NCBI GenBank assembly: GCA_014359355.1
Contig: JACIZP010000333.1
Span: forward strand, 1 to 34,555
DNA from: Calditrichota bacterium
GTDB lineage: Bacteria; Zhuqueibacterota; Zhuqueibacteria; JANLFK01; Oleimicrobiaceae
Reading direction: 5' to 3'
DNA length: 34,555 nucleotides
Positions 3,200-16,439 of this stretch are shown piece after piece (within the stretch, counting starts at the first letter, position 1; every line of letters begins with the position of its first letter). Below the pieces are notes generated by a model. That model was not told the origin of the DNA. It did no database searches and saw only the letters and a list, made by a program, of their open reading frames with translations. The position numbers were made by a program, and so were the translations under genes.

Positions 3200-4450
3200 A
3201 TGCGATTGTCAACCATGGCTCTGGGCGTAGCCTTGTTGGCAAGCTTGACGTGTGGCAAGTCTGACTTGGAGCGCGTCTATCCGGAGACGGTTGTCCTATA
3301 CGCACAGAACCCGACTGCGTTCCCTCGCAGGGACGAACCGGTGACCCTTGACATCAGCCGCATCAAGGCGAAAGCCCCGGATTTCAACCCCAGGGCCTAT
3401 GTGCTGCTCTGTGCGGGGACAGAAATAGCAAGTCAGGCGGAAGACTTGGACGGAGATGGACAACCGGAGAACATCACGGCCGTGCTGGACTTGCCGGCGA
3501 GCGGCAAGAGATTGTTGCGCCTAAGGTACGCCCCAGAAGGTTCAAGAGAGCGGACTTACCCGAAGAGGACACAGGCCGAGCTCTCTGTCAAGACTGGTGG
3601 CGAGTTCGTGGGACGCAAGTACGTGGGTGGTCATTTCGTAAACGTGCGCTCGCTCCGTGTGCCCCCCGAGCACACCGATCATTCCGAATTCATCCGCTAC
3701 GAAGGTCCCGGTTGGGAATCCGATTTGGTGGGATACCGTTTCTACCTGGACTGGAGGAACGCAATCGATGTCTTCGGCAAAAAGGTGCCCAAGATGGTGC
3801 TCCACGACGTGGGACAGGACGGATTTGAGTCGTACCACCAGATGGCCGACTGGGGCATGGATATCCTCAAGGTGGGCGAATCGCTGGGCATCGGTTCCCT
3901 CGGTATGTGGGTCGACGGCCAGGCACAGCGCGTGAGCGTGACGGACAGCGTCGTGTGTGAGGTGGTACTCAACGGACCGGTACGATCGCTCATCAGGACC
4001 AAGTATTTCGGCTGGAAGGTGGGCGGCAAGGCCTATGACCTTGTGTCCGAGCTTACCATAGTGGCCGGTAGCCGCATCACCACCCACCAAGTTCAAATCT
4101 CTGGTGAGGCGCCTAACGTGTGTACCGGAATCGTCAAAGATCCCTCAGCAGAACTTCTGCGTTCGGGCATAGGGGGAGATTGGGCGTACATGGCTACCTA
4201 CGGCAAACAGAGCCTTGCCGGAGATAGCTTGGGGTTGGCCGTGCTCTTCAGAACCCACGATTTTGCTGGGTATGCAGAGGATGAGCACAGTCACGTGGTG
4301 CTCTTGCGCCCTGAGAACGGAAGGGTGACCTACGCTTTCTTGGCTGCGTGGGAGGGAGAGCCCTCGGGGATCAAAACCAAAGCGGAATTTCTCAAGTACT
4401 TAGACGAAACGGTGCAGAGGTTGGCCAACCCAGTCGTCGTTGCCCACTGA
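3200..4450 (+). CDS. DUF4861 family exported protein of a pectin locus
   Basis: The protein has 416 residues and begins with a hydrophobic export signal (MALGVALLASLTCG). The Cys at 18 is preceded by SLT, which is not a canonical lipobox, so a lipoprotein is possible but unsure. The body matches the DUF4861 family as I know it: a region with 'GPGWESDLVGYRFYLDWRN' (about 170-190), then DVFGKKVPKMVLHDVG, and 'DWGMDILKVGESLGIGSLG'. Members are common in Bacteroidota pectin and rhamnogalacturonan loci. Their fold suggests a carbohydrate-binding or carbohydrate-modifying protein, but I know of no firmly established activity. GGGAGG just upstream of ATG 3200 is a strong ribosome-binding site. It lies between the lyase and kduI, so a role on pectin fragments in the periplasm is inferred. 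Confidence 0.8.
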   Translation: MRLSTMALGVALLASLTCGKSDLERVYPETVVLYAQNPTAFPRRDEPVTLDISRIKAKAPDFNPRAYVLLCAGTEIASQAEDLDGDGQPENITAVLDLPASGKRLLRLRYAPEGSRERTYPKRTQAELSVKTGGEFVGRKYVGGHFVNVRSLRVPPEHTDHSEFIRYEGPGWESDLVGYRFYLDWRNAIDVFGKKVPKMVLHDVGQDGFESYHQMADWGMDILKVGESLGIGSLGMWVDGQAQRVSVTDSVVCEVVLNGPVRSLIRTKYFGWKVGGKAYDLVSELTIVAGSRITTHQVQISGEAPNVCTGIVKDPSAELLRSGIGGDWAYMATYGKQSLAGDSLGLAVLFRTHDFAGYAEDEHSHVVLLRPENGRVTYAFLAAWEGEPSGIKTKAEFLKYLDETVQRLANPVVVAH

Positions 4451-4535
4451 CACCGGTACTCGAAGAGGGAGCAGACTGGCCCCAGCTGGCCCTGGCTCTC
4501 CGCGACGACGACCGATTAGCTGGGAGGAAATTCTT

Positions 4536-5366
4536 GTGGAGATACGCTATCCTGCTGACCCGATTCGCTTCCAGCGAATGACCACCGAGGAAATCCGAGG
4601 CTCTTTCCTCGTGGACACTCTCTTTGTGCCTGACGAAGTCGTCTTGCTCTACTCCGAAGTCGACAGAGCGGTTCTCGGATCCGCTGTGCCCGTGACGAAG
4701 CCGCTCCATCTCGGTGCATCGAGGGAACTTGCGGCAGACTACTTCTGCGAGCGCCGCGAACTCGGGCTACTCAACGTGGGTGGGACGGGAAGGGTGGTCG
4801 TGGACGGGAAGAGCTACGAGTTGCGCAACAAGGATATGCTGTACATTGGTCAGGGCGCGAGAGACGTCTCATTTGAAAGCGAACGCTCAGACGTCCCTGC
4901 TGCCTTCTACCTGCTCAGCTTCCCTGCCCATGCGGCTTTCCCCACCAGAAAGGTGGCGATGGAGGAGGCCGAAGCAGTGCATCTTGGCCAGGCGGCCAAT
5001 TGCAACGAGCGGACGATTTACAAGTACATCCACCCCGGGGGGATCAAGAGCTGCCAGCTGGTCATGGGCCTCACGGTGCTCGCACCAGGCTCAAACTGGA
5101 ATACCATGCCCCCGCACACGCACGAGAGACGCACGGAGATCTACCTCTACTTTGACATGGCTGAGGAGACGCGGGTATTTCACTTCATGGGCATGGCGGA
5201 AGAGACACGCCACATCGTGATAGCCAATCGCCAAGCGGTCATTTCGCCCAGCTGGTCCATTCATGCCGGTGTGGGCACAGGACCCTACTCCTTCTGCTGG
5301 GGTATGGGTGGCGAGAATCAGACCTTCGAAGACATGGATGTCATTGAGATGACAAGGCTCAGGTAG
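4536..5366 (+). CDS. kduI: 5-dehydro-4-deoxy-D-glucuronate isomerase (KduI)
   Basis: KduI converts the ketouronate formed from unsaturated galacturonate (5-keto-4-deoxyuronate) to 2,5-diketo-3-deoxygluconate (EC 5.3.1.17) in the cytoplasm. I place the start at GTG 4536, because GGAGG lies at 4523-4527 and the product then begins MEIRYPADPIRF and has 276 residues, the normal family length. An in-frame ATG at 4440 would add 32 unrelated residues that overlap the preceding gene. The cupin metal site is complete: His194, His196 and Glu201 in 'HTHERRTE', and His243 in 'SPSWSIH'. These match E. coli His196, His198, Glu203 and His245 with a constant offset of two. The 'NTMPPHTHERR' and 'GGENQTFEDMD' signatures are also present. 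kduD follows after 30 bases, so the two steps are co-encoded. Confidence 0.96.
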   Translation: MEIRYPADPIRFQRMTTEEIRGSFLVDTLFVPDEVVLLYSEVDRAVLGSAVPVTKPLHLGASRELAADYFCERRELGLLNVGGTGRVVVDGKSYELRNKDMLYIGQGARDVSFESERSDVPAAFYLLSFPAHAAFPTRKVAMEEAEAVHLGQAANCNERTIYKYIHPGGIKSCQLVMGLTVLAPGSNWNTMPPHTHERRTEIYLYFDMAEETRVFHFMGMAEETRHIVIANRQAVISPSWSIHAGVGTGPYSFCWGMGGENQTFEDMDVIEMTRLR

Positions 5367-5396
5367 CACCCGAGCAAGACATTGTGTGAGGGAGAG

Positions 5397-6158
5397 ATGA
5401 TTCTGGACAAGTTCCGCCTAGACGGAAAAGTGGCAATTGTGACAGGCGCGGCGCGCGGACTCGGGCAGGCCATGGCCGTTGGCCTGGCGGAAGCAGGGGC
5501 CGACGTGGTGGTTGTCGATGTGCTGGACATGGAACAGACCACACGGTGCATCGAGGACTTGGGCAGACGCTGCGCGGCCGTAAAGACCGACTTGCGCAAG
5601 CTCGAAAGCATCGACCTGATTGTGCGACAAGCCCTGGAGCGCATGGGCTCCATCGACATACTGGTCAACAACGCTGGCATCATCCGGCGCGCTCCTGTGC
5701 TGGAGTTTGAACTGAAGGACTGGGATGAGGTGATGGACGTCAATGTGCGCACGCTTTTTTTCCTCACCCAGGCGGTGGCAAAAGTGATGGTCCAGCAGGG
5801 GAGAGGGGGGAAGATCATCAACATCGCATCCATGCTCTCCTTCCAGGGGGGCATCCTTGTGCCCTCATACACGGCCTCGAAAAGCGCCGTAATGGGTTTG
5901 ACTCGCCTGCTGGCCAACGAGCTTGCTCCCCACAACATCAATGTCAACGCCATTGCCCCAGGGTACATGGCCACCGACAACACGGCTCCCCTGCGCGCGG
6001 ACCCGGTGCGGAGCAAAGCAATCCTCGAGCGAATCCCTGCGGGAAGATGGGGCGAACCGGAAGACCTGAAAGGCGTCGTCGTGTTTCTGGCTTCAGAAGC
6101 TTCGGCCTATATGCACGGCTATACTGTGGCGGTGGACGGTGGATGGTTGGCCCGCTAA
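5397..6158 (+). CDS. kduD: 2-dehydro-3-deoxy-D-gluconate 5-dehydrogenase (KduD), SDR family
   Basis: KduD reduces 2,5-diketo-3-deoxygluconate to 2-keto-3-deoxygluconate (KDG) with a nicotinamide cofactor (EC 1.1.1.127). The product from ATG 5397 has 253 residues. Classical short-chain dehydrogenase landmarks are in place: the nucleotide-binding TGAARGLG at 16-23, NNAG at 91-94, the catalytic Ser145, Tyr158 and Lys162 (SYTASK), and the terminal DGGWL. AGGGAG at 5389-5394 precedes the start closely. A TTG at 5382 is in frame but less likely. The general SDR fold is certain; the specific role rests on position directly after kduI and on the KduD-like sequence. KDG kinase and aldolase are not in the window and must be elsewhere. 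Confidence 0.88.
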   Translation: MILDKFRLDGKVAIVTGAARGLGQAMAVGLAEAGADVVVVDVLDMEQTTRCIEDLGRRCAAVKTDLRKLESIDLIVRQALERMGSIDILVNNAGIIRRAPVLEFELKDWDEVMDVNVRTLFFLTQAVAKVMVQQGRGGKIINIASMLSFQGGILVPSYTASKSAVMGLTRLLANELAPHNINVNAIAPGYMATDNTAPLRADPVRSKAILERIPAGRWGEPEDLKGVVVFLASEASAYMHGYTVAVDGGWLAR

Positions 6159-6315: not shown

Positions 6316-7287
6316 ATGAGACGTAGTTTGCTGCCCGTGCTGCTTGCTGCTTTGCTTGTTTCTTGTTCGCAGTCTGGCGGAAGAACGCGGGTTCTGAAGC
6401 TTGCGCACGCCCTGGACACCAATCACCCCGTGCACAAGGGCATGGTGTACATGGCCGAACGCGTGGCTGAAAAGTCCCACGGACGACTCCGAGTGGACAT
6501 CTACCCAAGCGGGCAGTTAGGCGACGAGAGGGAACTAATCGAGTTGCTGCAAATCGGTAGCTTGGCCATGACCAAGGTGTCCACCGCCCCCTTGGAGGCG
6601 TTCGTGCCTGAAATGGAGATATTCGGCATCCCATACGTGTTCAGGGACGATGAACACCGCTGGAAGGTACTGCGTGGCGACATCGGGAGGAGACTGCTGC
6701 TGGCAGGGGAGAGGTTTCTCCTTCGCGGCATGTGCTACTACGACGCCGGCAGCCGCAGCTTCTACACGAAAAAGGTCCCAATTATGCAACCCGGCGACCT
6801 ACGAGGCCTGAAGATTCGGGTCATGAATAGTCCTACTTCCTTCAAAATGATACAGACGCTGGGCGGCTCGGCTACGCCGATCCCGTGGGGTGAGCTTTAT
6901 ACTGCCCTCCAGCAAGGCGTGGTGGACGGAGCAGAGAATAACCCACCCAGCTTCTACTTCTCGCGTCACTACGAAGTTTGCAAGTACTACTGCCTGGATG
7001 AGCACACATCAATCCCCGACATTCTCCTGATGAGCACCACGGTGTGGGAGACTCTTTCGCTCGAGGAGCAGAAGTGGTTGCAAGAAGCGGTGGACGAGTC
7101 GGTTGACTACCAACGAAAACTTTGGCAAGAGTCATCGGAGCAGGCCCTGCAGGAGGTGCAAAAGGCGGGAGTTCAGGTGCTGCACCCCGACAAAGCTCCT
7201 TTTAGGCGCGCGGTGCAAGAGATGTACGACGCCTACAAAGGGACGCCTATCTATGAGCTGATTCAAGAGATTCAACGGGTGGAGTAG
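6316..7287 (+). CDS. TRAP transporter substrate-binding lipoprotein (DctP family), probably for uronates
   Basis: The protein has 323 residues and is a periplasmic solute receptor of a TRAP (tripartite ATP-independent periplasmic) system. Residues 1-17 are a lipoprotein signal with lipobox LVSC (Cys17), so it is membrane-tethered rather than free. The DctP fold is clear: 'LKLAHALDTNHPVHKG' near the start, 'YPSGQLGDERELIELLQIG', and 'LRGLKIRVMNSPTSFKMI', where Arg168 is the conserved arginine that binds the substrate carboxylate, followed by 'GVVDGAENNP'. GAGGAAG upstream of the ATG is the ribosome-binding site. The two membrane subunits follow at once. Characterised relatives bind C4-dicarboxylates, sugar acids or uronates; a galacturonate or unsaturated oligogalacturonate ligand is inferred from the neighbours. 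Confidence 0.93.
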   Translation: MRRSLLPVLLAALLVSCSQSGGRTRVLKLAHALDTNHPVHKGMVYMAERVAEKSHGRLRVDIYPSGQLGDERELIELLQIGSLAMTKVSTAPLEAFVPEMEIFGIPYVFRDDEHRWKVLRGDIGRRLLLAGERFLLRGMCYYDAGSRSFYTKKVPIMQPGDLRGLKIRVMNSPTSFKMIQTLGGSATPIPWGELYTALQQGVVDGAENNPPSFYFSRHYEVCKYYCLDEHTSIPDILLMSTTVWETLSLEEQKWLQEAVDESVDYQRKLWQESSEQALQEVQKAGVQVLHPDKAPFRRAVQEMYDAYKGTPIYELIQEIQRVE

Positions 7288-7298
7288 GGAGACCTGCT

Positions 7299-7811
7299 AT
7301 GGCAAAGTTGACCGGATACATCACCAGAGCCCTTGGTATTTTCCTCAGTTTCCTCATGGCGACCATGGTGCTGGATGTTACGTGGCAGGTTTTCACGCGC
7401 TTCGTGCTTCGCAATCCCAGTTCGTATACCGAGGAGCTGGCCAGGTTTCAGCTGATGTGGGTCGGTTTGCTTGGTGCCAGCTATGCGTACCGCACCAAGG
7501 CACACTTGGGAATCGACGTGCTGGCTACCAGGCTGACAGGCAGCAAACGGAAAATCCTTGAGGTGGCGATAAACCTGCTGGTACTTCTCTTCGCTCTGTT
7601 CGTGATGGTTATTGGCGGAATACGTCTTGTGCAGCTCACCTTCACCCTTGGTCAGGTGTCTACTGCCCTCGGGGTGCCAATGGGGTACGTCTACTCGGTA
7701 CTGCCGATTTCGGGTTTTCTCATGATCTACTTTGCCCTTCATTTCATCGTGGAAACGTTGCGTGAAAAGCAAGCCCCTGCAATCCCCAGGCAGGTCGGCG
7801 AGCCGATCTGA
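7299..7811 (+). CDS. TRAP transporter small permease subunit (DctQ family)
   Basis: The product has 170 residues with four predicted membrane helices (about 10-30, 48-68, 88-112 and 125-150), the standard DctQ topology. The motif 'RNPSSYTEELARFQLMWVG' between helices one and two is typical of the family, as is 'AYRTKAHLGIDVL'. DctQ forms the membrane complex with the large subunit DctM and is needed for sodium-driven uptake of substrate delivered by DctP. It starts 11 bases after dctP, with GGGAG upstream, and is followed by dctM after 44 bases. It carries no substrate information itself. Confidence 0.93.
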   Translation: MAKLTGYITRALGIFLSFLMATMVLDVTWQVFTRFVLRNPSSYTEELARFQLMWVGLLGASYAYRTKAHLGIDVLATRLTGSKRKILEVAINLLVLLFALFVMVIGGIRLVQLTFTLGQVSTALGVPMGYVYSVLPISGFLMIYFALHFIVETLREKQAPAIPRQVGEPI

Positions 7812-7855
7812 GCAATGAACCGAACGGAGGCACAACTCAAGAGGGAGTTTGCTCA

Positions 7856-9151
7856 ATGGATCTGTCAGTGGTGACGTTGGTTGTGAGCTTTGTTCTTCTG
7901 CTCGCTATGAACGTGCCCATCGCCATCGCCATCGGTATCGCCACGACCTTGACGATGCTCTTTACTATTAGCCCAGTGCCGGCTCTCACCACAGTGGCAC
8001 AGCGCATGGCCACCGGAATCAACAGTTTCACGCTGTTGGCAATTCCCTTCTTCATTCTTTCTGGCCAGCTCATGGGCAGAGGCGGGATTGCAAGGCGCCT
8101 TATTGACCTCGCCAAGGCTCTGGTCGGGATGCTTCCGGGAGGGTTGGCCTACGTCAACATCCTCGCCTGCATGTTTTTCGGCGCTATTTCCGGATCCGCG
8201 GCCGCGGCCACCTCAGCAATCGGCGGCTTCATGATTCCGACGATGAAGAAAGAGGGGTACGATGCCAACTTTAGCACCGCAGTCACAGTGACAGGAGCGA
8301 CGACGGGGCTACTGATCCCACCTTCGAACGTGCTGATCGTCTACTCATTGGCCAGTGGAGGTGTTTCCATCGCAGCTTTGTTCATCGCCGGGTACCTGCC
8401 CGGGATTCTCTTAGGCTTGGGTCTGATAGCCGTGGCTGCAGCGATTGCCGTGGCCAAGAAATACCCGGTCGGGGAAAAGGTGTCGCTCCTTGAGGGAGGG
8501 CGGAGGCTTTTGGATGCGATTCCCAGTCTCCTGCTCGTTGTGGTGGTCATTGGCGGCATTATCGCCGGCTTCTTTACTGCTACGGAAGCGAGCGGGATTG
8601 CCGTCCTCTATTCCTTTCTGCTCTCGGTGGCGATCTATCGGGAAGTGAAGATCCGAGAGCTGCCGCAGATCCTCCTCAAGACGGTAGAGACGACGGCCAT
8701 CGTCATGCTGCTGATTGGAGCCTCCTCCGGAATGTCGTGGATTCTCTCCTACGAGAACATTCCGCAGAATGTCAGTGCGGCCCTTATTGCTCTCACCGAC
8801 AGCAAGCTGGCGATTCTGCTCATCATCAACATCGTCTTGCTCATCGTGGGCACGTTCATGGACATGACCCCCGCAGTTCTCATCTTCACGCCGATCTTCT
8901 TGCCGGTAGTGGTTCGCCTTGGCATGAGTCCACTGCACTTCGGCATCGTCCTGGTTCTGAACCTTTGCATCGGGCTCTGTACACCTCCGGTCGGTTCGGT
9001 GCTTTTTCTGGGATGCGGCGTCGGCAACACCACCATTGCACGCATCACCCGAACGCTGGTGCCTTTCTATCTCGGCATGATCGTCGTCTTGCTGATCGTG
9101 ACCTATGTGCCTTGGTTCAGCTTGTTCCTGCCTAGGCTCTTCGGGTACTGA
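7856..9151 (+). CDS. TRAP transporter large permease subunit (DctM family)
   Basis: The product has 431 residues and about 12 hydrophobic segments, the size and pattern of DctM, the ion-coupled transport channel of TRAP systems. Recognisable family segments include 'LAIPFFILSGQLMGRGGIA' in the first half, 'GAISGSAAAATSAIGGFMIP', 'GLLIPPSNVLIVY', 'GTFMDMTPAVLIFTPIFLP' and 'LCIGLCTPPVGSVLFLG' in the second. The repeated pattern reflects the internal inverted repeat of the family. The start is ATG 7856 with GGGAG about ten bases upstream. With the DctP and DctQ genes it makes a complete transporter embedded among uronate enzymes. Confidence 0.94.
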   Translation: MDLSVVTLVVSFVLLLAMNVPIAIAIGIATTLTMLFTISPVPALTTVAQRMATGINSFTLLAIPFFILSGQLMGRGGIARRLIDLAKALVGMLPGGLAYVNILACMFFGAISGSAAAATSAIGGFMIPTMKKEGYDANFSTAVTVTGATTGLLIPPSNVLIVYSLASGGVSIAALFIAGYLPGILLGLGLIAVAAAIAVAKKYPVGEKVSLLEGGRRLLDAIPSLLLVVVVIGGIIAGFFTATEASGIAVLYSFLLSVAIYREVKIRELPQILLKTVETTAIVMLLIGASSGMSWILSYENIPQNVSAALIALTDSKLAILLIINIVLLIVGTFMDMTPAVLIFTPIFLPVVVRLGMSPLHFGIVLVLNLCIGLCTPPVGSVLFLGCGVGNTTIARITRTLVPFYLGMIVVLLIVTYVPWFSLFLPRLFGY

Positions 9152-9212
9152 TAGCCTAAGGTAGCGGATGCTCGCTCACCATGGTGGTGCCACGAAAACC
9201 TTGGGAGGACGA

Positions 9213-10628
9213 ATGAGGAAGAGAGGGATGCTTGCTGCTGACCGCTTCTTTGATCCTGATGCGAAGACCCGCAAGATCGCGCGTACGCTCTACGAGGGCG
9301 TAAGGGGCCTGCCCATAATCAGCCCCCATGGCCATGTCGACCCGCGCATCTTCGCGGAAAATCGCCCTTTCCCTGACCCCACAGAGCTGATCCTCATTCC
9401 GGACCACTACATCTTCCGCATGCTCTACTCGCAGGGTATCCCGTTGGAGTCGTTGGGCATTCCCACGCTGGACGGGACGCCGGTGGAGACCGACCACCGC
9501 AAGATTTGGCAGTGTTTTGCCGACCACTACTTCCTCTTTGCTGGGACGCCGACTTCTCTGTGGCTCGCGTACGTTTTCGAGGAGGTGTTTGGCATCCAGC
9601 AAAAGCTGGACAGCAGTTCCGCGATGAAGATCTACGATGAGATCTCGGAGAAGCTGCGCAGTCCAGAGTTCTTGCCTCGTTCCCTCTTCGAGCGGTTTAA
9701 GATCGAGGTCCTCACCACCACCGATGCGGCCACCGATACGCTTGCCCAGCACCGCAGGATCAGGGAATCAGGCTGGCAGGGCAGGGTAATTCCCTGTTTT
9801 CGTCCGGATGGAGTGACGGACCTGTTGGCGAAAGGGTGGAGGGAAAACGTCAACAGGCTAAGTGAGGTGAGCGGCATCGAGATAGACTCGTACGGAAAGT
9901 TCATTGAGGCACTCGAGGAACGGAGACGTTTCTTCAAGGCAATGGGTGCAGTGTCCACTGACCATGCCGTGGAGAGTCCCTACACACACGAGTTGAGTCG
10001 GAGGCAAGCTGAGGTCATTCTTCAACGCGCACTCAAGGGAAAGGCAACAGCCCAGGACGCGGCGCACTTCACGGCGCACATGTTGATGGAATATGCCCGC
10101 ATGAGCATCGAGGACGGGTTGGTAATGCAGATTCATCCCGGCTCTTTCCGGAACCATAATCAGTTTGTTTTCCGGCGCTTTGGTCCAGACAAGGGGTGTG
10201 ACATCCCGGTGGTAACGGAGTACACCAGGAACCTCTACGAACTGTTGAACAAGTATGGGAATGACACCCGCTTGACCCTCATTGTGTTCACTCTGGATGA
10301 GTCGGCATATTCGAGGGAGCTGGCTCCCTTGGCCGGGCACTACCCCGCCATGCGTCTGGGACCTCCCTGGTGGTTCCACGACAGCATCGAAGGGATGATC
10401 CGCTTCCGCAAGATGGTGACCGAAACGGCCGGCATTTACAATACGGTGGGCTTCAACGATGACACCCGGGCCTTTCCGTCCATCCCGGCGCGACATGACC
10501 TGGCACGGCGGATGGACTGCAACTTCTTAGCTGGGTTGGTGGCGCGCAAGATCATCGATATGGCCGAAGCCAAGAAGCTGAGTCGGGCTTTGGCTTACGA
10601 TCTGCCTAAGCAGGCGTACAAGCTGTGA
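9213..10628 (+). CDS. uxaC: Uronate isomerase (UxaC)
   Basis: UxaC isomerises D-galacturonate to D-tagaturonate and D-glucuronate to D-fructuronate (EC 5.3.1.12) in the cytoplasm. I choose ATG 9213 because GGGAGGA lies at 9203-9209 and the product then has 471 residues, equal to the E. coli enzyme (470). ATG 9168 is in frame but has no such site. The amidohydrolase-type metal motif is 'SPHGHVDP' (His39 and His41). Other family segments are 'LIPDHYIFRMLYSQGI', 'MQIHPGSFRNHN', 'PPWWFHDS' and 'FNDDTRAFPSIPARHD'. It stands between the transporter and the tagaturonate epimerase, which uses its product. Confidence 0.96.
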   Translation: MRKRGMLAADRFFDPDAKTRKIARTLYEGVRGLPIISPHGHVDPRIFAENRPFPDPTELILIPDHYIFRMLYSQGIPLESLGIPTLDGTPVETDHRKIWQCFADHYFLFAGTPTSLWLAYVFEEVFGIQQKLDSSSAMKIYDEISEKLRSPEFLPRSLFERFKIEVLTTTDAATDTLAQHRRIRESGWQGRVIPCFRPDGVTDLLAKGWRENVNRLSEVSGIEIDSYGKFIEALEERRRFFKAMGAVSTDHAVESPYTHELSRRQAEVILQRALKGKATAQDAAHFTAHMLMEYARMSIEDGLVMQIHPGSFRNHNQFVFRRFGPDKGCDIPVVTEYTRNLYELLNKYGNDTRLTLIVFTLDESAYSRELAPLAGHYPAMRLGPPWWFHDSIEGMIRFRKMVTETAGIYNTVGFNDDTRAFPSIPARHDLARRMDCNFLAGLVARKIIDMAEAKKLSRALAYDLPKQAYKL

Positions 10629-10638
10629 AGGGCCGAGT

Positions 10639-11913
10639 ATGTGTAGCGCAATAGGTGAATCGAACTTGGAGCTGGGAAAATACTCATTCGGTCTCGGCGA
10701 CCGCTTCGGGTTGCAAGGGAAAGCGCTTCTCCGGGCCGTGGTTGAAGCTCGCCCGCTCGGCGTGGAGGTGACACCGGTGTGGAACAAGTCCTACCGCGAG
10801 CACGTCATCGTTGGCAGTAGGCCTGCAGACACGCGGAAAGAAGCAGATGAGGCCGTGCGGGCCCTGGGCTGGAAGGGGCCCTACTTCGTCGACGCAGACC
10901 ATGTCACCGCCACGAGCGTCACTTTCTTTGTGGAAGACTGCGACTTTTTCACGGTCGACGTGGCCGAGCAGATAGGAAGACCATCGGCAATCGACCGCCT
11001 CGAAGATTTTGTGAGGCGAAATGAAAGGTACCTTGGTGAACTGACGATTTCCACCGACGCCCGGTTCCGCGTGGGAAGGGCCGAACTGGAGCGGATTGGT
11101 CGTCGCTACTTGGCCGCGATTGATGAGTTAGAAGCGGTGTATCAGCTGATAACCCGCCATCGAGATGGCGCGCCCTTCGTCCTCGAGTTGTCCATGGACG
11201 AGACCGCTGAGCCGCAGCATCCTGTGGAGCTCTTCTTCTTGCTGTCGGAGGTCGCGGACAGAGGCATCCCCCTTGCGACCATTGCACCGAGGTTTCCAGG
11301 AAAGCTGCACAAGGGTGTGGACTATGAGGGGAACGTCGAGGAATTTGCGCGACACTTTGCTCTCATGCTCGAGACCCTGCAGTTGGCAGTTGGTGAGTTC
11401 GCTTTGCCCAAGGCTCTCAAGTTGAGTCTCCATTCCGGGAGCGATAAGTTTGCCCTCTATGGGCCGATCAGAGAGGCCCTATTCCGGCATGATGCGGGCC
11501 TCCACATCAAGACGGCAGGCACGACCTGGCTTGAGGAGCTGGCCGGACTGGCAGAAGTCGGCGGCGACGGTCTCAGTGTCGCCAAAGAGATCTACCGCCA
11601 AGCGTACCAACGCCTTGAAGAACTGGTGGCACCTTACGCGGCAGTCACGAAGATTGTCGCAAGAAAACTCCCGGAGCCAGTGGAAGTAGACAGGTGGAGC
11701 GAAGATGAATTTGTGGGTGCCCTGCGAAATGAACCAGGCAACTCTCGTTTCAATGAGAATTTCCGGCAGTTGCTTCACGTGGCATACAAAATCGCTGCAG
11801 AGATGGGAACCCGCTACACCAACCTCGTGTTGAAGCATGAGGATACCATTTCGGCCAACGTAACCAAGAACATTCTGGAGCGTCATATTCGACCTCTTTT
11901 CTTGGGAGAGTGA
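10639..11913 (+). CDS. uxaE: Tagaturonate epimerase (UxaE family)
   Basis: The product has 424 residues and resembles the UxaE family known from Thermotoga maritima, which interconverts D-tagaturonate and D-fructuronate (EC 5.1.2.7) and so joins the galacturonate branch to the glucuronate branch without altronate. Segments I associate with the family are 'KYSFGLGDRFGLQGKALL', 'GPYFVDADHVT', 'FPGKLHKGVDYEGN', 'LKLSLHSGSDKFALYGPI' and 'HIKTAGTTWLEELAGLAE'. Several His and Asp residues in these segments may bind a metal. The gene starts 11 bases after uxaC and ends four bases before the next dehydrogenase, consistent with one operon. No altronate-forming UxaB or altronate dehydratase UxaA is present here, which supports the epimerase route. 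Assignment is from recall of family sequence, not a search. Confidence 0.85.
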   Translation: MCSAIGESNLELGKYSFGLGDRFGLQGKALLRAVVEARPLGVEVTPVWNKSYREHVIVGSRPADTRKEADEAVRALGWKGPYFVDADHVTATSVTFFVEDCDFFTVDVAEQIGRPSAIDRLEDFVRRNERYLGELTISTDARFRVGRAELERIGRRYLAAIDELEAVYQLITRHRDGAPFVLELSMDETAEPQHPVELFFLLSEVADRGIPLATIAPRFPGKLHKGVDYEGNVEEFARHFALMLETLQLAVGEFALPKALKLSLHSGSDKFALYGPIREALFRHDAGLHIKTAGTTWLEELAGLAEVGGDGLSVAKEIYRQAYQRLEELVAPYAAVTKIVARKLPEPVEVDRWSEDEFVGALRNEPGNSRFNENFRQLLHVAYKIAAEMGTRYTNLVLKHEDTISANVTKNILERHIRPLFLGE

Positions 11914-11916
11914 AAC

Positions 11917-12696
11917 ATGGGCTACCTCGAGGAGTTGTTCGGTTTGGACGGCAAGGTGGCAGTGGTTATTGGTGGGGGTGGCGTGCTTGGCGGCGCCATG
12001 TGCCTGGCGTTGGCGAAGGCTGGCGCGAAAGTGGCCGTCGTCGACCTCGATCAAGAGAAGGCCGCGGCGCGCGCCGCAGAGATAGCAGCGCTGGGGAGGG
12101 AGGCCATTGCGGTGCCCGCAGATGCCGCTACCAAGAGCGACCTGGAAGCGGCAGAGCAGACCGTAGAGAGGACCTTCCACCGCGTCGACATTCTCATCAA
12201 CGCGCCGGGTATCAACTCTGCGACACCATTTTTCGAGATCACCGAGGAAGAATGGAACAAGATTTTGGACGTGAATCTCAAGAGCATGTTTCTTGCCTGT
12301 CAGATATTTGGCAAGAAGATGATCGAGCAGGGTGAAGGAGGGAGCATCATCAACATCTCTTCGGCCTCGTCTGGCCCCCCTCTTTCCAAGGTCTTCACGT
12401 ACAGCATTTCCAAGGCCGGCGTGAACAATCTCACGCAGTTTCTGGCAAGGGAGTGGGCCCCGCATAGGGTGCGCGTCAACGCAATTGCCCCTGGCTTTTT
12501 CCCCGCGGAGCAGAACCGAAGACTTCTCACCAAGGAGCGCACCGAGGCCATTCTGAGGCATACGCCCATGGGTCGCTTCGGGGAGGCGGAAGAACTCGCC
12601 GGGGCAGTGCTCTGGCTGGCTTCCGAAAAGGCGTCTTCCTTCGTTACGGGGGCCATCATTCGTGTGGATGGCGGGTTTTCCGCGATGACCATTTGA
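11917..12696 (+). CDS. SDR oxidoreductase, probable D-fructuronate reductase (mannonate-forming)
   Basis: The product has 259 residues and is a classical short-chain dehydrogenase. The nucleotide motif is IGGGGVLGG rather than TGxxxGxG, and the usual NNAG is replaced by INAPG (94-98). Tyr162 and Lys166 (YSISK) are catalytic. 'APGFFPAEQNRRLL' after the active site is what I associate with the SDR-type fructuronate reductase of Bacillus (YjmF/UxuB), which makes D-mannonate from D-fructuronate. Its position directly after the tagaturonate epimerase, the enzyme that supplies fructuronate, supports this. A gluconate 5-dehydrogenase or another sugar-acid dehydrogenase remains possible. The stop codon is immediately followed by the ribosome-binding site of gnd. 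Confidence 0.75.
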   Translation: MGYLEELFGLDGKVAVVIGGGGVLGGAMCLALAKAGAKVAVVDLDQEKAAARAAEIAALGREAIAVPADAATKSDLEAAEQTVERTFHRVDILINAPGINSATPFFEITEEEWNKILDVNLKSMFLACQIFGKKMIEQGEGGSIINISSASSGPPLSKVFTYSISKAGVNNLTQFLAREWAPHRVRVNAIAPGFFPAEQNRRLLTKERTEAILRHTPMGRFGEAEELAGAVLWLASEKASSFVTGAIIRVDGGFSAMTI

Positions 12697-12710
12697 CGGG
12701 AGAGGCAGGC

Positions 12711-14120
12711 ATGGAAGAGCATGATGTCGGCGTGGTTGGTCTCGGAGTGATGGGACAGAACCTCGCCCTGAACATGGAACGCCACGGCTATTCAGTTGCT
12801 GGCTTCGATCTCGATGAAGGCAAACGGCACGAGTTCAGTCGGAAGGGATCGGGAAAGAGTGTTGCAGCCTACGGCACGCTTGAGGAGTTTCTTGTGCACC
12901 TGCATACTCCCAGGAAAATCCTCATTATGGTTCCGGCAGGCCAGGCGGTCGATGCGGTCATCAACAGCTTGAAAGGACAGCTTGCCGCTGGGGACATTCT
13001 CATCGATGGTGGGAATAGCCACTTCTTGGACACTGAACGACGCCTCAAGCAACTTGAAGAGACGGGCATACTGTTCGTTGGCAGCGGCATTAGTGGCGGT
13101 GAGGAAGGAGCTCTTTGGGGTCCCGCGATCATGCCGGGAGGCAACCCCGAAGCCTGGCCCCACCTCCGGGAAATGCTGCAGGCTATCGCCGCGAGGGCCG
13201 ATGATGGAACTCCGTGTTGCACATGGATCGGGCCTGGCGGTGCGGGACACTTCGTTAAGATGGTGCACAATGGCATCGAGTACGCTGACATGCAGATGAT
13301 CAGCGAGGCCTATTTCCTCATGGCGCGCCTCCTCGGTCTCAGCGCGGAGCAGATGGCGACCGTTTTCGAGAACTGGAATGCCGGGGAGCTCAAGAGCTAT
13401 TTGATCGAGATCACTGCCCGTGTCTTGCGCAAGAAAGACGAGGAAACGGGCGAGCCGCTCGTTGAACTGATTCTCGATACTGCAGAGCAGAAGGGCACGG
13501 GGAAATGGACCAGCCAGGCCGCACTTGACCTGGGAGCACCGGCGCAGACAATTGCCGAGGCTGTCTTCGCCCGGATGCTGAGTGCACTCAAGGAAGAGCG
13601 CGTAAGAGCAGCCGAGCTCCTATCGGGCCCACGACCTGTGCCTGTGCCCGAGAGTGAGGGCTTCATTGAGAAGATACGCCAGGCTCTCTACGCGGCGAAG
13701 ATCTGTTCCTATGCCCAGGGCTTTCAGATCATGCGGGCTGCCGACCGCGAGTACGGCTGGCACCTCGATTTTGGCGCGATCGCTTCCGTGTGGCGGGCGG
13801 GCTGCATCATCCGGGCGCAGTTCTTGGATAGAATCAGGGAAGCCTACGGGAGAACGCGGGATCTGGCGAATCTGATGCTGGACGCCTATTTCGGAGAGGC
13901 CCTGCGCAATTGCCAAGAGGCATGGCGCGAGGTCATTATCCGGGCCGCGGAAAACGGAATCCCTTGTCCGGCGCTGAGCAGTGCACTTGCTTACTACGAC
14001 GGCTATCGGAGCGCCATCTTGCCCGCCAATCTGATTCAGGCGCAGCGCGACTATTTTGGAGCGCATACGTATCGACGGGTCGACAAGCCAGGCGTATTTC
14101 ACACAGTGTGGACAGACTGA
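12711..14120 (+). CDS. gnd: 6-phosphogluconate dehydrogenase, decarboxylating (Gnd)
   Basis: Gnd oxidises and decarboxylates 6-phosphogluconate to ribulose 5-phosphate and CO2, reducing NADP or NAD (EC 1.1.1.44 or 1.1.1.343). From ATG 12711, with GGGAG at 12698-12702, the product has 469 residues, the standard long form (E. coli 468). The dinucleotide fold 'GLGVMGQNLALN', substrate loop 'GISGGEEGALWGP', catalytic Lys183 and Glu190 in 'HFVKMVHNGIE' (the canonical numbers), and the signature 'QKGTGKW' are all intact. Gnd belongs to the pentose phosphate pathway and is unusual inside a pectin operon. Placed between the mannonate-forming SDR and a LarA-type epimerase, it suggests that uronate carbon enters through 6-phosphogluconate. 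The identity is certain; the pathway role is inferred. Confidence 0.96.
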   Translation: MEEHDVGVVGLGVMGQNLALNMERHGYSVAGFDLDEGKRHEFSRKGSGKSVAAYGTLEEFLVHLHTPRKILIMVPAGQAVDAVINSLKGQLAAGDILIDGGNSHFLDTERRLKQLEETGILFVGSGISGGEEGALWGPAIMPGGNPEAWPHLREMLQAIAARADDGTPCCTWIGPGGAGHFVKMVHNGIEYADMQMISEAYFLMARLLGLSAEQMATVFENWNAGELKSYLIEITARVLRKKDEETGEPLVELILDTAEQKGTGKWTSQAALDLGAPAQTIAEAVFARMLSALKEERVRAAELLSGPRPVPVPESEGFIEKIRQALYAAKICSYAQGFQIMRAADREYGWHLDFGAIASVWRAGCIIRAQFLDRIREAYGRTRDLANLMLDAYFGEALRNCQEAWREVIIRAAENGIPCPALSSALAYYDGYRSAILPANLIQAQRDYFGAHTYRRVDKPGVFHTVWTD

Positions 14121-14131
14121 AAGAGGACACG

Positions 14132-15391
14132 ATGCTCATAGGAAGGGGAGATCCAGTAGGGTTCCTCTCTGAGGAAGAGGTTTGCGGGATAGTTCTTCAG
14201 GCGCTCTCGCAGCAGAAGTTGGCGGGCAAGCGCGTGCTCGTAATAGTGCCGGACCTCACCCGCAACGCGCCCATTCCGCTGTTCTTCAAGCTGCTGGTGG
14301 AGACGCTTCGTCCCCAGGTGAAGTCGCTTGATTTCATGATTGCCCTGGGGACACATCAGCCACTCAACACTCGCAAGATTGCCGAGCGCGTGGGCGTCTC
14401 CATTTCCGATCTCCAGACGTGCTACAAGGACATCGGCTTCATCAACCATGCGTACGACAAGGCCGAAGAACTGACTGTGATCGGCACCATCTCAGAAGAG
14501 GAGGTGGCCGAGATCTCTGCGGGATTACTCAAAGAGGTGGCCCGAGTTACTGTCAACAGGCGCCTTTTTGATTACGATTTGCTTCTCATTCTAAGTCCAG
14601 TAGTACCGCACGAGGTCGCCGGTTTTTCTGGGGGGAACAAGTACCTTTTCCCAGGAGTTTCCGGGGCGGAATTCATAGACTTTTTTCATTGGCTTTCAGC
14701 GATCATTACAAACATCGTTCTGAACGGCATTAGGGACAATCCTATAAGGAGACTTTTGGACCGCGCTGCTTCTTTTCTGAGCGTTCCTCGGCTGTACTTC
14801 AACATGGTGTGCCACGAAGGCGCGCTCAAGGGTCTCTATGTCGGGGATAACGAGGAGGCGTGGTCGAGGGCCGCTGATCTCTCGGCGCAGGTCCACATTC
14901 GCTACGTCGATCGGCCCTATAGCCGGGTGCTGGGCATCGCGCCCCCGAATTACGAGGACCTCTGGGTCGCAGGCAAGGTCATGTACAAGCTGGAGCCGGT
15001 GGTGGCCGACGGAGGGGAACTGATCATTTATGCCCCACACATCGCAGAGATTTCACACACACACGGTGCGATATTGCGACGAATTGGCTACCACGTGCGC
15101 GACTACTACTTGGCACAAATGGAGCGCTTTGCAGACGTACCGCGCGGGGTGCTCGCACACTCCACACATGTGAAAGGCGCCGGGAGCTACAAGGACGGCG
15201 TAGAGCGGCCCAGGATCAACGTATCTCTTGCGACCGCCATTCCCGAGGGTATCTGCAGGAAGATCAACCTTGGGTACCGAGACTGGAGAAGTATAGATCT
15301 GGATGGGTGGCGCAACCGGGAAGAGGAAGGCGTGTTGCTTGTGGAAAAAGCCGGAGAGGTGCTCTACAGGCTACGGACGGCGCAACCCTGA
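14132..15391 (+). CDS. LarA-family nickel-pincer-dependent racemase/epimerase, candidate mannonate/gluconate 2-epimerase
   Basis: The product from ATG 14132 (AAGAGGA just upstream) has 419 residues, the usual LarA length. LarA enzymes use a nickel-pincer nucleotide and swap the C2 configuration of 2-hydroxy acids. The key residues match Lactobacillus LarA: His160 in 'VPHEVAGFSGGNK', Lys170 (cofactor-attached Lys184) ten residues on, and nickel ligand His186 (His200) sixteen after that. His106 in 'INHAYD' fits catalytic His108. The 'GTHRP' of lactate racemase, whose Arg contacts substrate, is 'GTHQP' here (Gln76), so a substrate other than lactate is likely. Some LarA homologues are D-gluconate 2-epimerases, and D-mannonate is the C2 epimer of gluconate. 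The gene follows fructuronate reductase and gnd. Substrate is inferred. LarB, LarC and LarE, which make the cofactor, are not in the window. Confidence 0.85.
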   Translation: MLIGRGDPVGFLSEEEVCGIVLQALSQQKLAGKRVLVIVPDLTRNAPIPLFFKLLVETLRPQVKSLDFMIALGTHQPLNTRKIAERVGVSISDLQTCYKDIGFINHAYDKAEELTVIGTISEEEVAEISAGLLKEVARVTVNRRLFDYDLLLILSPVVPHEVAGFSGGNKYLFPGVSGAEFIDFFHWLSAIITNIVLNGIRDNPIRRLLDRAASFLSVPRLYFNMVCHEGALKGLYVGDNEEAWSRAADLSAQVHIRYVDRPYSRVLGIAPPNYEDLWVAGKVMYKLEPVVADGGELIIYAPHIAEISHTHGAILRRIGYHVRDYYLAQMERFADVPRGVLAHSTHVKGAGSYKDGVERPRINVSLATAIPEGICRKINLGYRDWRSIDLDGWRNREEEGVLLVEKAGEVLYRLRTAQP

Positions 15392-15539
15392 GGAGCACGA
15401 TGAGCTCTGCGAGGTGGGCACAGGCAGAGGCAGGTTTTCTTGCTGTTTGTTTGTGGCTACCATGATGGTAAGCTCGCGTTGCGAGCCTTGGTGCGTTGCG
15501 GTTAGTCTTAGGCATGGATGACCTACGGGAGTGGACACG
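15392..15539 (+). other. Gap after the LarA homologue with small palindromes and a possible 21-codon ORF
   Basis: Two small inverted repeats lie side by side: TACCAT-G-ATGGTA at 15459-15471 and GCTCGC-GTT-GCGAGC at 15472-15486. Neither has a T-run, so they are not clear terminators. A 21-codon frame starts at ATG 15400 with AGGAG at 15391-15395 overlapping the preceding stop, and ends at TGA 15463-15465; its product is mildly hydrophobic and matches nothing I know. The following HAD gene has its own GGGAG. Confidence 0.35.

Positions 15540-16439
<900 letters not shown>

Follow-up and report, generated by a model that had tools for sequence, protein, structure and literature searches.

The open reading frame at positions 14,132 to 15,391 of the window, that is, of the entire stretch of 34,555 nucleotides that was analysed, most probably encodes a GntE-like C2 epimerase of the NPN type, which would interconvert D-mannonate and D-gluconate in the breakdown of pectin. 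We infer its substrate, its loading with NPN and the direction of its reaction from the evidence laid out below. A GntE-type epimerase is part of an already known pathway; the mannonate-to-gluconate shortcut, known from Thermotoga, is here extended to a broad clade, encoded in at least 582 stretches from Planctomycetes, Chloroflexi, Calditrichota/KSB1 and others. The analysis also corrects which Arg is to be regarded as the substrate-binding one.

The reading frame is free of stops from the ATG at 14,132 to the TGA at 15,391 and specifies a full-length protein, with a start codon that agrees with the starts of its orthologues in the alignment and that follows the stop codon of gnd after 11 bases. 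The protein has both the Lar_N domain (PF09861, E=2e-21) and the LarA fold that define the LarA superfamily. Its best sequence match in the PDB is GntE2 of Thermotoga maritima (4nar; 221 bits with phmmer), and this is also the best fold match of its structure model (pLDDT 92.9), with a TM score of 0.85 in Foldseek, as compared to 0.67-0.76 for the LarA structures. The features of the locus are collected in Table 1.

Table 1. Genes and epimerase residues of the locus, with positions in the window
Feature	Position	Strand	Basis
KduI	4440..5366	+	NF002091, 419 bits
KduD	5382..6158	+	TIGR01832, 397 bits
TRAP transporter DctP-DctQ-DctM	6316..9151	+	Profile matches
UxaC, uronate isomerase	9168..10628	+	NF002794, 542 bits
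UxaE, tagaturonate-fructuronate epimerase	10639..11913	+	PF16257, E=2e-51
SDR, D-mannonate oxidoreductase-like (putative fructuronate reductase)	11917..12696	+	NF006132, 293 bits (cut-off 281)
Gnd, decarboxylating 6-phosphogluconate dehydrogenase	12693..14120	+	TIGR00873, 697 bits (cut-off 427)
Predicted LarA-superfamily hexonate 2-epimerase, GntE-like, 419 aa	14132..15391	+	ORF, Lar_N, 4nar sequence and fold match
DLTR motif: Asp41 and Arg44 = LarA Asp72 (catalytic) and Arg75 (carboxylate/NPN)	14252..14263	+	Alignment; invariant 102/102
His75-Gln76 = LarA catalytic His108 and variable Arg109	14354..14359	+	Alignment, clade residue counts
His160-Glu161-Val162 = catalytic His174 and specificity loop; EV = hexonate-group signature	14609..14617	+	Alignment, clade residue counts
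Lys170 = LarA Lys184, NPN contact	14639..14641	+	Alignment, clade residue counts
His186 = LarA His200, NPN contact	14687..14689	+	Alignment, clade residue counts
Trp278 ... Gly281-Lys282 = helix 11 specificity residues and catalytic Lys298	14963..14977	+	Alignment, clade residue counts
HAD-family hydrolase, conserved operon partner	15531..16439	+	PF13419

In LarA, numbered here as in PMC7583248, Arg75, Lys184 and His200 contact the cofactor, while Asp72, His108, His174 and Lys298 are catalytic (PMC7583248). The seven equivalents, Asp41, Arg44, His75, His160, Lys170, His186 and Lys282, are each invariant in all 102 clade members. At the level of sequence, this bears out the initial annotation, which had assigned the protein to the LarA family with intact cofactor chemistry. 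The same annotation had pointed to a GTHQP motif and to His160, Lys170 and His186 as nickel-pincer residues. The motif (A71-L-G-T-H75-Q76-P77, residues 71-77) is present, and the three residues stand at spacings of 10 and 16, identical to those of LarA His174, Lys184 and His200 in the alignment. Lys170 and His186 indeed correspond to NPN contacts, but His160 is the equivalent of the catalytic His174, for which no cofactor contact is listed in PMC7583248.

It had further been proposed that the substrate-binding Arg is lost to Gln76 and that the carboxylate pocket and the substrate are changed as a consequence. Gln76 does immediately follow the catalytic His75, and the aligned lactate racemases of known structure carry Arg at this position; even so, the proposal is now highly improbable. 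In the phmmer alignment with Lactobacillus plantarum LarA, His75-Gln76 is paired with His108-Arg109, while Asp41-Leu-Thr-Arg44 is paired with Asp72-His-Thr-Arg75; LarA Arg75 sits in DHTRP. The equivalent of Arg75 and both histidines are the carboxylate-binding residues according to PMC11851776, in which the carboxylate-binding Arg of I. pallida LarA is printed both as Arg73 and as Arg75. Since Arg44 aligns with Arg75, the carboxylate and cofactor Arg of PMC7583248 and PMC11851776, the substrate-binding Arg is, as judged from the alignment, the invariant Arg44 and not the residue at position 76. The 20 signature residues given in PMC7583248 do not include LarA Arg109. Across the 102 clade members, position 76 is mostly Pro (64), followed by Gln (29, so that GTHQP is not rare noise), Leu (3), Arg (2), Met (2) and Ala (1). 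The homologue of known substrate also speaks against the proposal: GntE2, a proven hexonate epimerase with the same kind of substrate, has Arg at this position. Given the variation at this position in the clade and the Arg of GntE2, Gln76 appears to be unimportant and to say nothing about the substrate. As a specificity determinant, it was ruled out on the grounds of this variation and of its failure to align with Arg75.

The residues linked to specificity in PMC7583248 are Glu161-Val162, Trp278 and Gly281 of helix 11, and Gly339 of helix 14. This E-V, W, G-K pattern agrees with the hexonate groups 18, 19 and 20 of PMC7583248, and the pocket has all the elements expected for GntE (E-V/S, W, a small residue preceding the catalytic Lys and another on helix 14). 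Because of these residues and the operon, the substrate is probably not lactate, as had been anticipated on the basis of Gln76, which is not what supports it. Lactate racemase was ruled out by profile score (70.8 bits with NF033504 vs a cut-off of 460), by the pocket, with EV instead of the hydrophobic FF/LM loop, and by the tree, in which the clade groups with GntE2 and group 18, apart from the lactate racemases (100/99). L. plantarum LarA (5huq/6c1w) shares the DxTR motif, both catalytic His, Lys184, His200 and Lys298, but has FF or LM in the loop and Y-Q-x-V where the epimerase has EV and W-V-A-G, and the structural identity is 17-18%.

In many aspects the epimerase is reminiscent of GntE2 (LarAH20), the D-gluconate 2-epimerase of T. 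maritima. Besides the fold, the two share the catalytic and NPN residues, the Glu after the second His, Trp and A-G-K on helix 11, and the operon context gnd-uxaE-SDR. They differ in overall sequence (34% identity), in the residue after the first catalytic His (Arg in GntE2, Gln or Pro in the clade) and at position 162 (Ser in GntE2, Val here); furthermore, a HAD gene is present in the operon here, gntK is not, and genes for NPN synthesis were not found in the genome. LarAH group 18 (NCBIfam NF052594), a putative hexonate epimerase, has the same E-V, W, K pocket signature and takes the corresponding place in the operons of other genomes, but the examined group-18-type sequences have Asn before the catalytic Lys, where the epimerase has Gly. 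Membership of this group was ruled out (177.1 bits vs a curated cut-off of 500, group members scoring 557-639). The clade could be LarAH group 19.

The genes are arranged in the order KduI-KduD-TRAP-UxaC-UxaE-SDR-Gnd-LarAH-HAD, with gaps mostly below 50 bases, except for 157 before DctP and 139 before HAD; a DUF4861 gene also lies upstream of the epimerase on the same strand. This is a hexuronate operon with gnd, uxaE and an SDR, as expected for GntE, and it corresponds to the UxaR-regulated pectin locus gnd-uxaE-uxaD-gntE-gntK of T. maritima (PMC3750489). Both congeners (L145, L146) have essentially the same arrangement. In a sample of 80 loci from several phyla, a few of which are the same locus reached twice, the neighbours of LarAH are Gnd (41), SDR (35), HAD (27), UxaE (22) and UxaC (15), Gnd and the mannonate-oxidoreductase-type SDR being the commonest identified ones. 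The same slot is taken by a GntE2-like LarAH in L134 and by a group-18-type LarAH in L138-L141, which is to be expected if all of these distant enzymes perform the same step. Upstream of the operon, at 835-2907 of the window, lies a gene for a Pel9A-like protein that has a right-handed beta-helix and a C-terminal sorting domain, likely a secreted enzyme of the pectate lyase type.

Galacturonate derived from pectin would enter the cell through the TRAP transporter, the ligand of which is assigned by context, and be converted to tagaturonate by UxaC, to fructuronate by UxaE and to D-mannonate by the SDR. The epimerase would then invert C2 to yield D-gluconate, a kinase, none of which was identified here, would form 6-phosphogluconate, and Gnd would pass this on into the pentose phosphate pathway. 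Conversion of mannonate to gluconate feeding Gnd is the best reading because UxuA was not found in the window's genome with a profile that was positive in five controls. In a LarA-like chemistry, His75 and His160 would alternate as acid and base, and the C2 hydride would be accepted and given back by the carbon of NPN, which Lys170 and His186 would keep in place. Arg44 and Lys282 may hold the carboxylate, and Glu161, Trp278 and the small Gly281 and Gly339 would leave space for the polyol chain.

GntE2 epimerises D-mannonate, albeit with a weak KM of 17 mM (PMC7583248), which counts against the mannonate/gluconate reading. The main alternative is a phosphorylated substrate, in which case a mannonate kinase would act first and the epimerase would convert 6-phospho-D-mannonate into 6-phospho-D-gluconate, the direct substrate of Gnd. 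It owes this position to Lactobacillus suebicus, extracts of which phosphorylate mannonate first and epimerise it afterwards, by an epimerase the gene of which is unknown (PMC6978723). The adjacency of Gnd and LarAH, together with the lack of an identified gluconokinase, fits such a route, as does the high KM of GntE2 for free mannonate. It nevertheless seems improbable, since GntE1, GntE2 and LarAH15 are active on free D-mannonate and no phosphate-binding feature was identified at the level of sequence in the epimerase. Epimerisation of another hexonate or aldarate of uronate metabolism, for example, altronate or glucarate, has been suggested for group 19, to which the clade could belong and which has a KM for mannonate of 120 mM and a gene context of uronic acid metabolism (PMC7583248). 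For the present protein this is quite unlikely, as the prevalence of Gnd and the mannonate-oxidoreductase-type SDR among its neighbours fits mannonate and gluconate.

The preferred conversion of free mannonate to gluconate calls for a gluconate kinase. No gluconokinase is present in the operon, where gntK would adjoin a typical gntE, and none was identified in the genome, in which the FGGY matches are a xylulokinase, a rhamnulokinase and two ribulokinases; a P-loop GntK was not found over the cut-off in 16 genomes. In other loci, the cluster contains a kinase of the PfkA type (PRK14072) or of the PfkB type. Among the 41 loci with Gnd, 15 have PfkA only, 11 PfkB only, one both and 14 neither, an avoidance with a P of about 0.01 before correction, for which lineage is a confounder. 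The gene that immediately follows the epimerase encodes a PRK14072-type PfkA in L055, L061, L071 and L134, and a PfkB in L048, L057, L062 and L127. Both congeners carry a PfkB that is 51% identical to the PfkB kinases of the clusters. The PfkA- and PfkB-type kinases are candidate gluconate or mannonate kinases and, when adjacent, are, like the conserved HAD protein, candidates for the missing steps.

The HAD hydrolase retains the motifs DSDG and GDxxxD as read from its sequence. In many phyla it accompanies Gnd and the epimerase as a conserved partner, and its presence near LarAH (27 of 80 loci) is associated with that of Gnd (Fisher p=1.4e-5). Some HAD phosphatases are repair enzymes that protect Gnd from 4-phosphoerythronate. 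It could be guessed, by analogy, that the HAD protein of this operon has such a role.

Genes for LarB, LarC and LarE were not detected over the cut-off in the window's genome (G000), a draft that is about 96% complete, nor in the congeners G001 and G002, and this counts against the GntE reading, although the three genes usually accompany members of the LarA superfamily without strictly defining it. Matches below the cut-off in the window's genome (LarB, 36 bits; LarE, E=3e-10) presumably stem from enzymes with a different role, for instance PurE and ATP pyrophosphatases distinct from LarE. The genome nevertheless encodes four LarA homologues, including the epimerase. A full-length orthologue of the epimerase occurs in 50 of 194 genomes, 14 of which have all three cofactor genes, seven some and 29 none, the latter being the window's genome and 28 of its 49 orthologue-bearing relatives; every NPN-binding residue is kept. 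A gap in the draft is an unlikely explanation, as 18 of these 29 genomes, including the two congeners, are at least 95% complete. Absence as a trait of the whole clade was ruled out: LarC is found in 29 of the 34 genomes reached through named loci, in various phyla, and LarE is encoded near LarAH in L098 and L109. The clade as a whole is therefore NPN-linked and the absence regional. Several LarA homologues without any of the three genes over the cut-off are found in G000-G005, G008, G039, G134 and others, and LarC without LarB or LarE over the cut-off in G011, G027, G049, G052 and G054.

About 15% of genomes show the inverse pattern, LarBCE without LarA (PMC11796402); for LarA without LarBCE, no paper on the point was found in the literature searched. 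The absence could reflect uptake of NPN, another route of synthesis, or divergence of the homologues beyond the reach of the profiles. Around the three remaining LarA homologues, superficial inspection of the loci revealed no obvious candidate for a replacement gene. We consider it possible, if only tentatively, that the epimerase and the three further homologues function without LarB, LarC and LarE, with NPN obtained from other microbes or by a new route. If so, NPN would either be shared among organisms or be made in a different way. Like the missing gluconokinase, this pattern is more interesting than Gln76, and it deserves to be followed up.

Of the three other homologues of the window's genome, one (L001, 835-2118, minus strand) has the broad-spectrum LM loop and lies directly beside L-rhamnose isomerase, and it presumably handles lactate from rhamnose. 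Another, LarA/malate-racemase-like, belongs to a cluster (L153, 41-10027, minus strand) that both congeners have for the most part and that also encodes a GlcD-like FAD oxidase, a cysteine-rich CCG protein and a GcvH-like protein. The last (L003, 829-2133, minus strand) has Arg aligned with the catalytic Lys298 and a PL loop after His174, and possibly catalyses another reaction.
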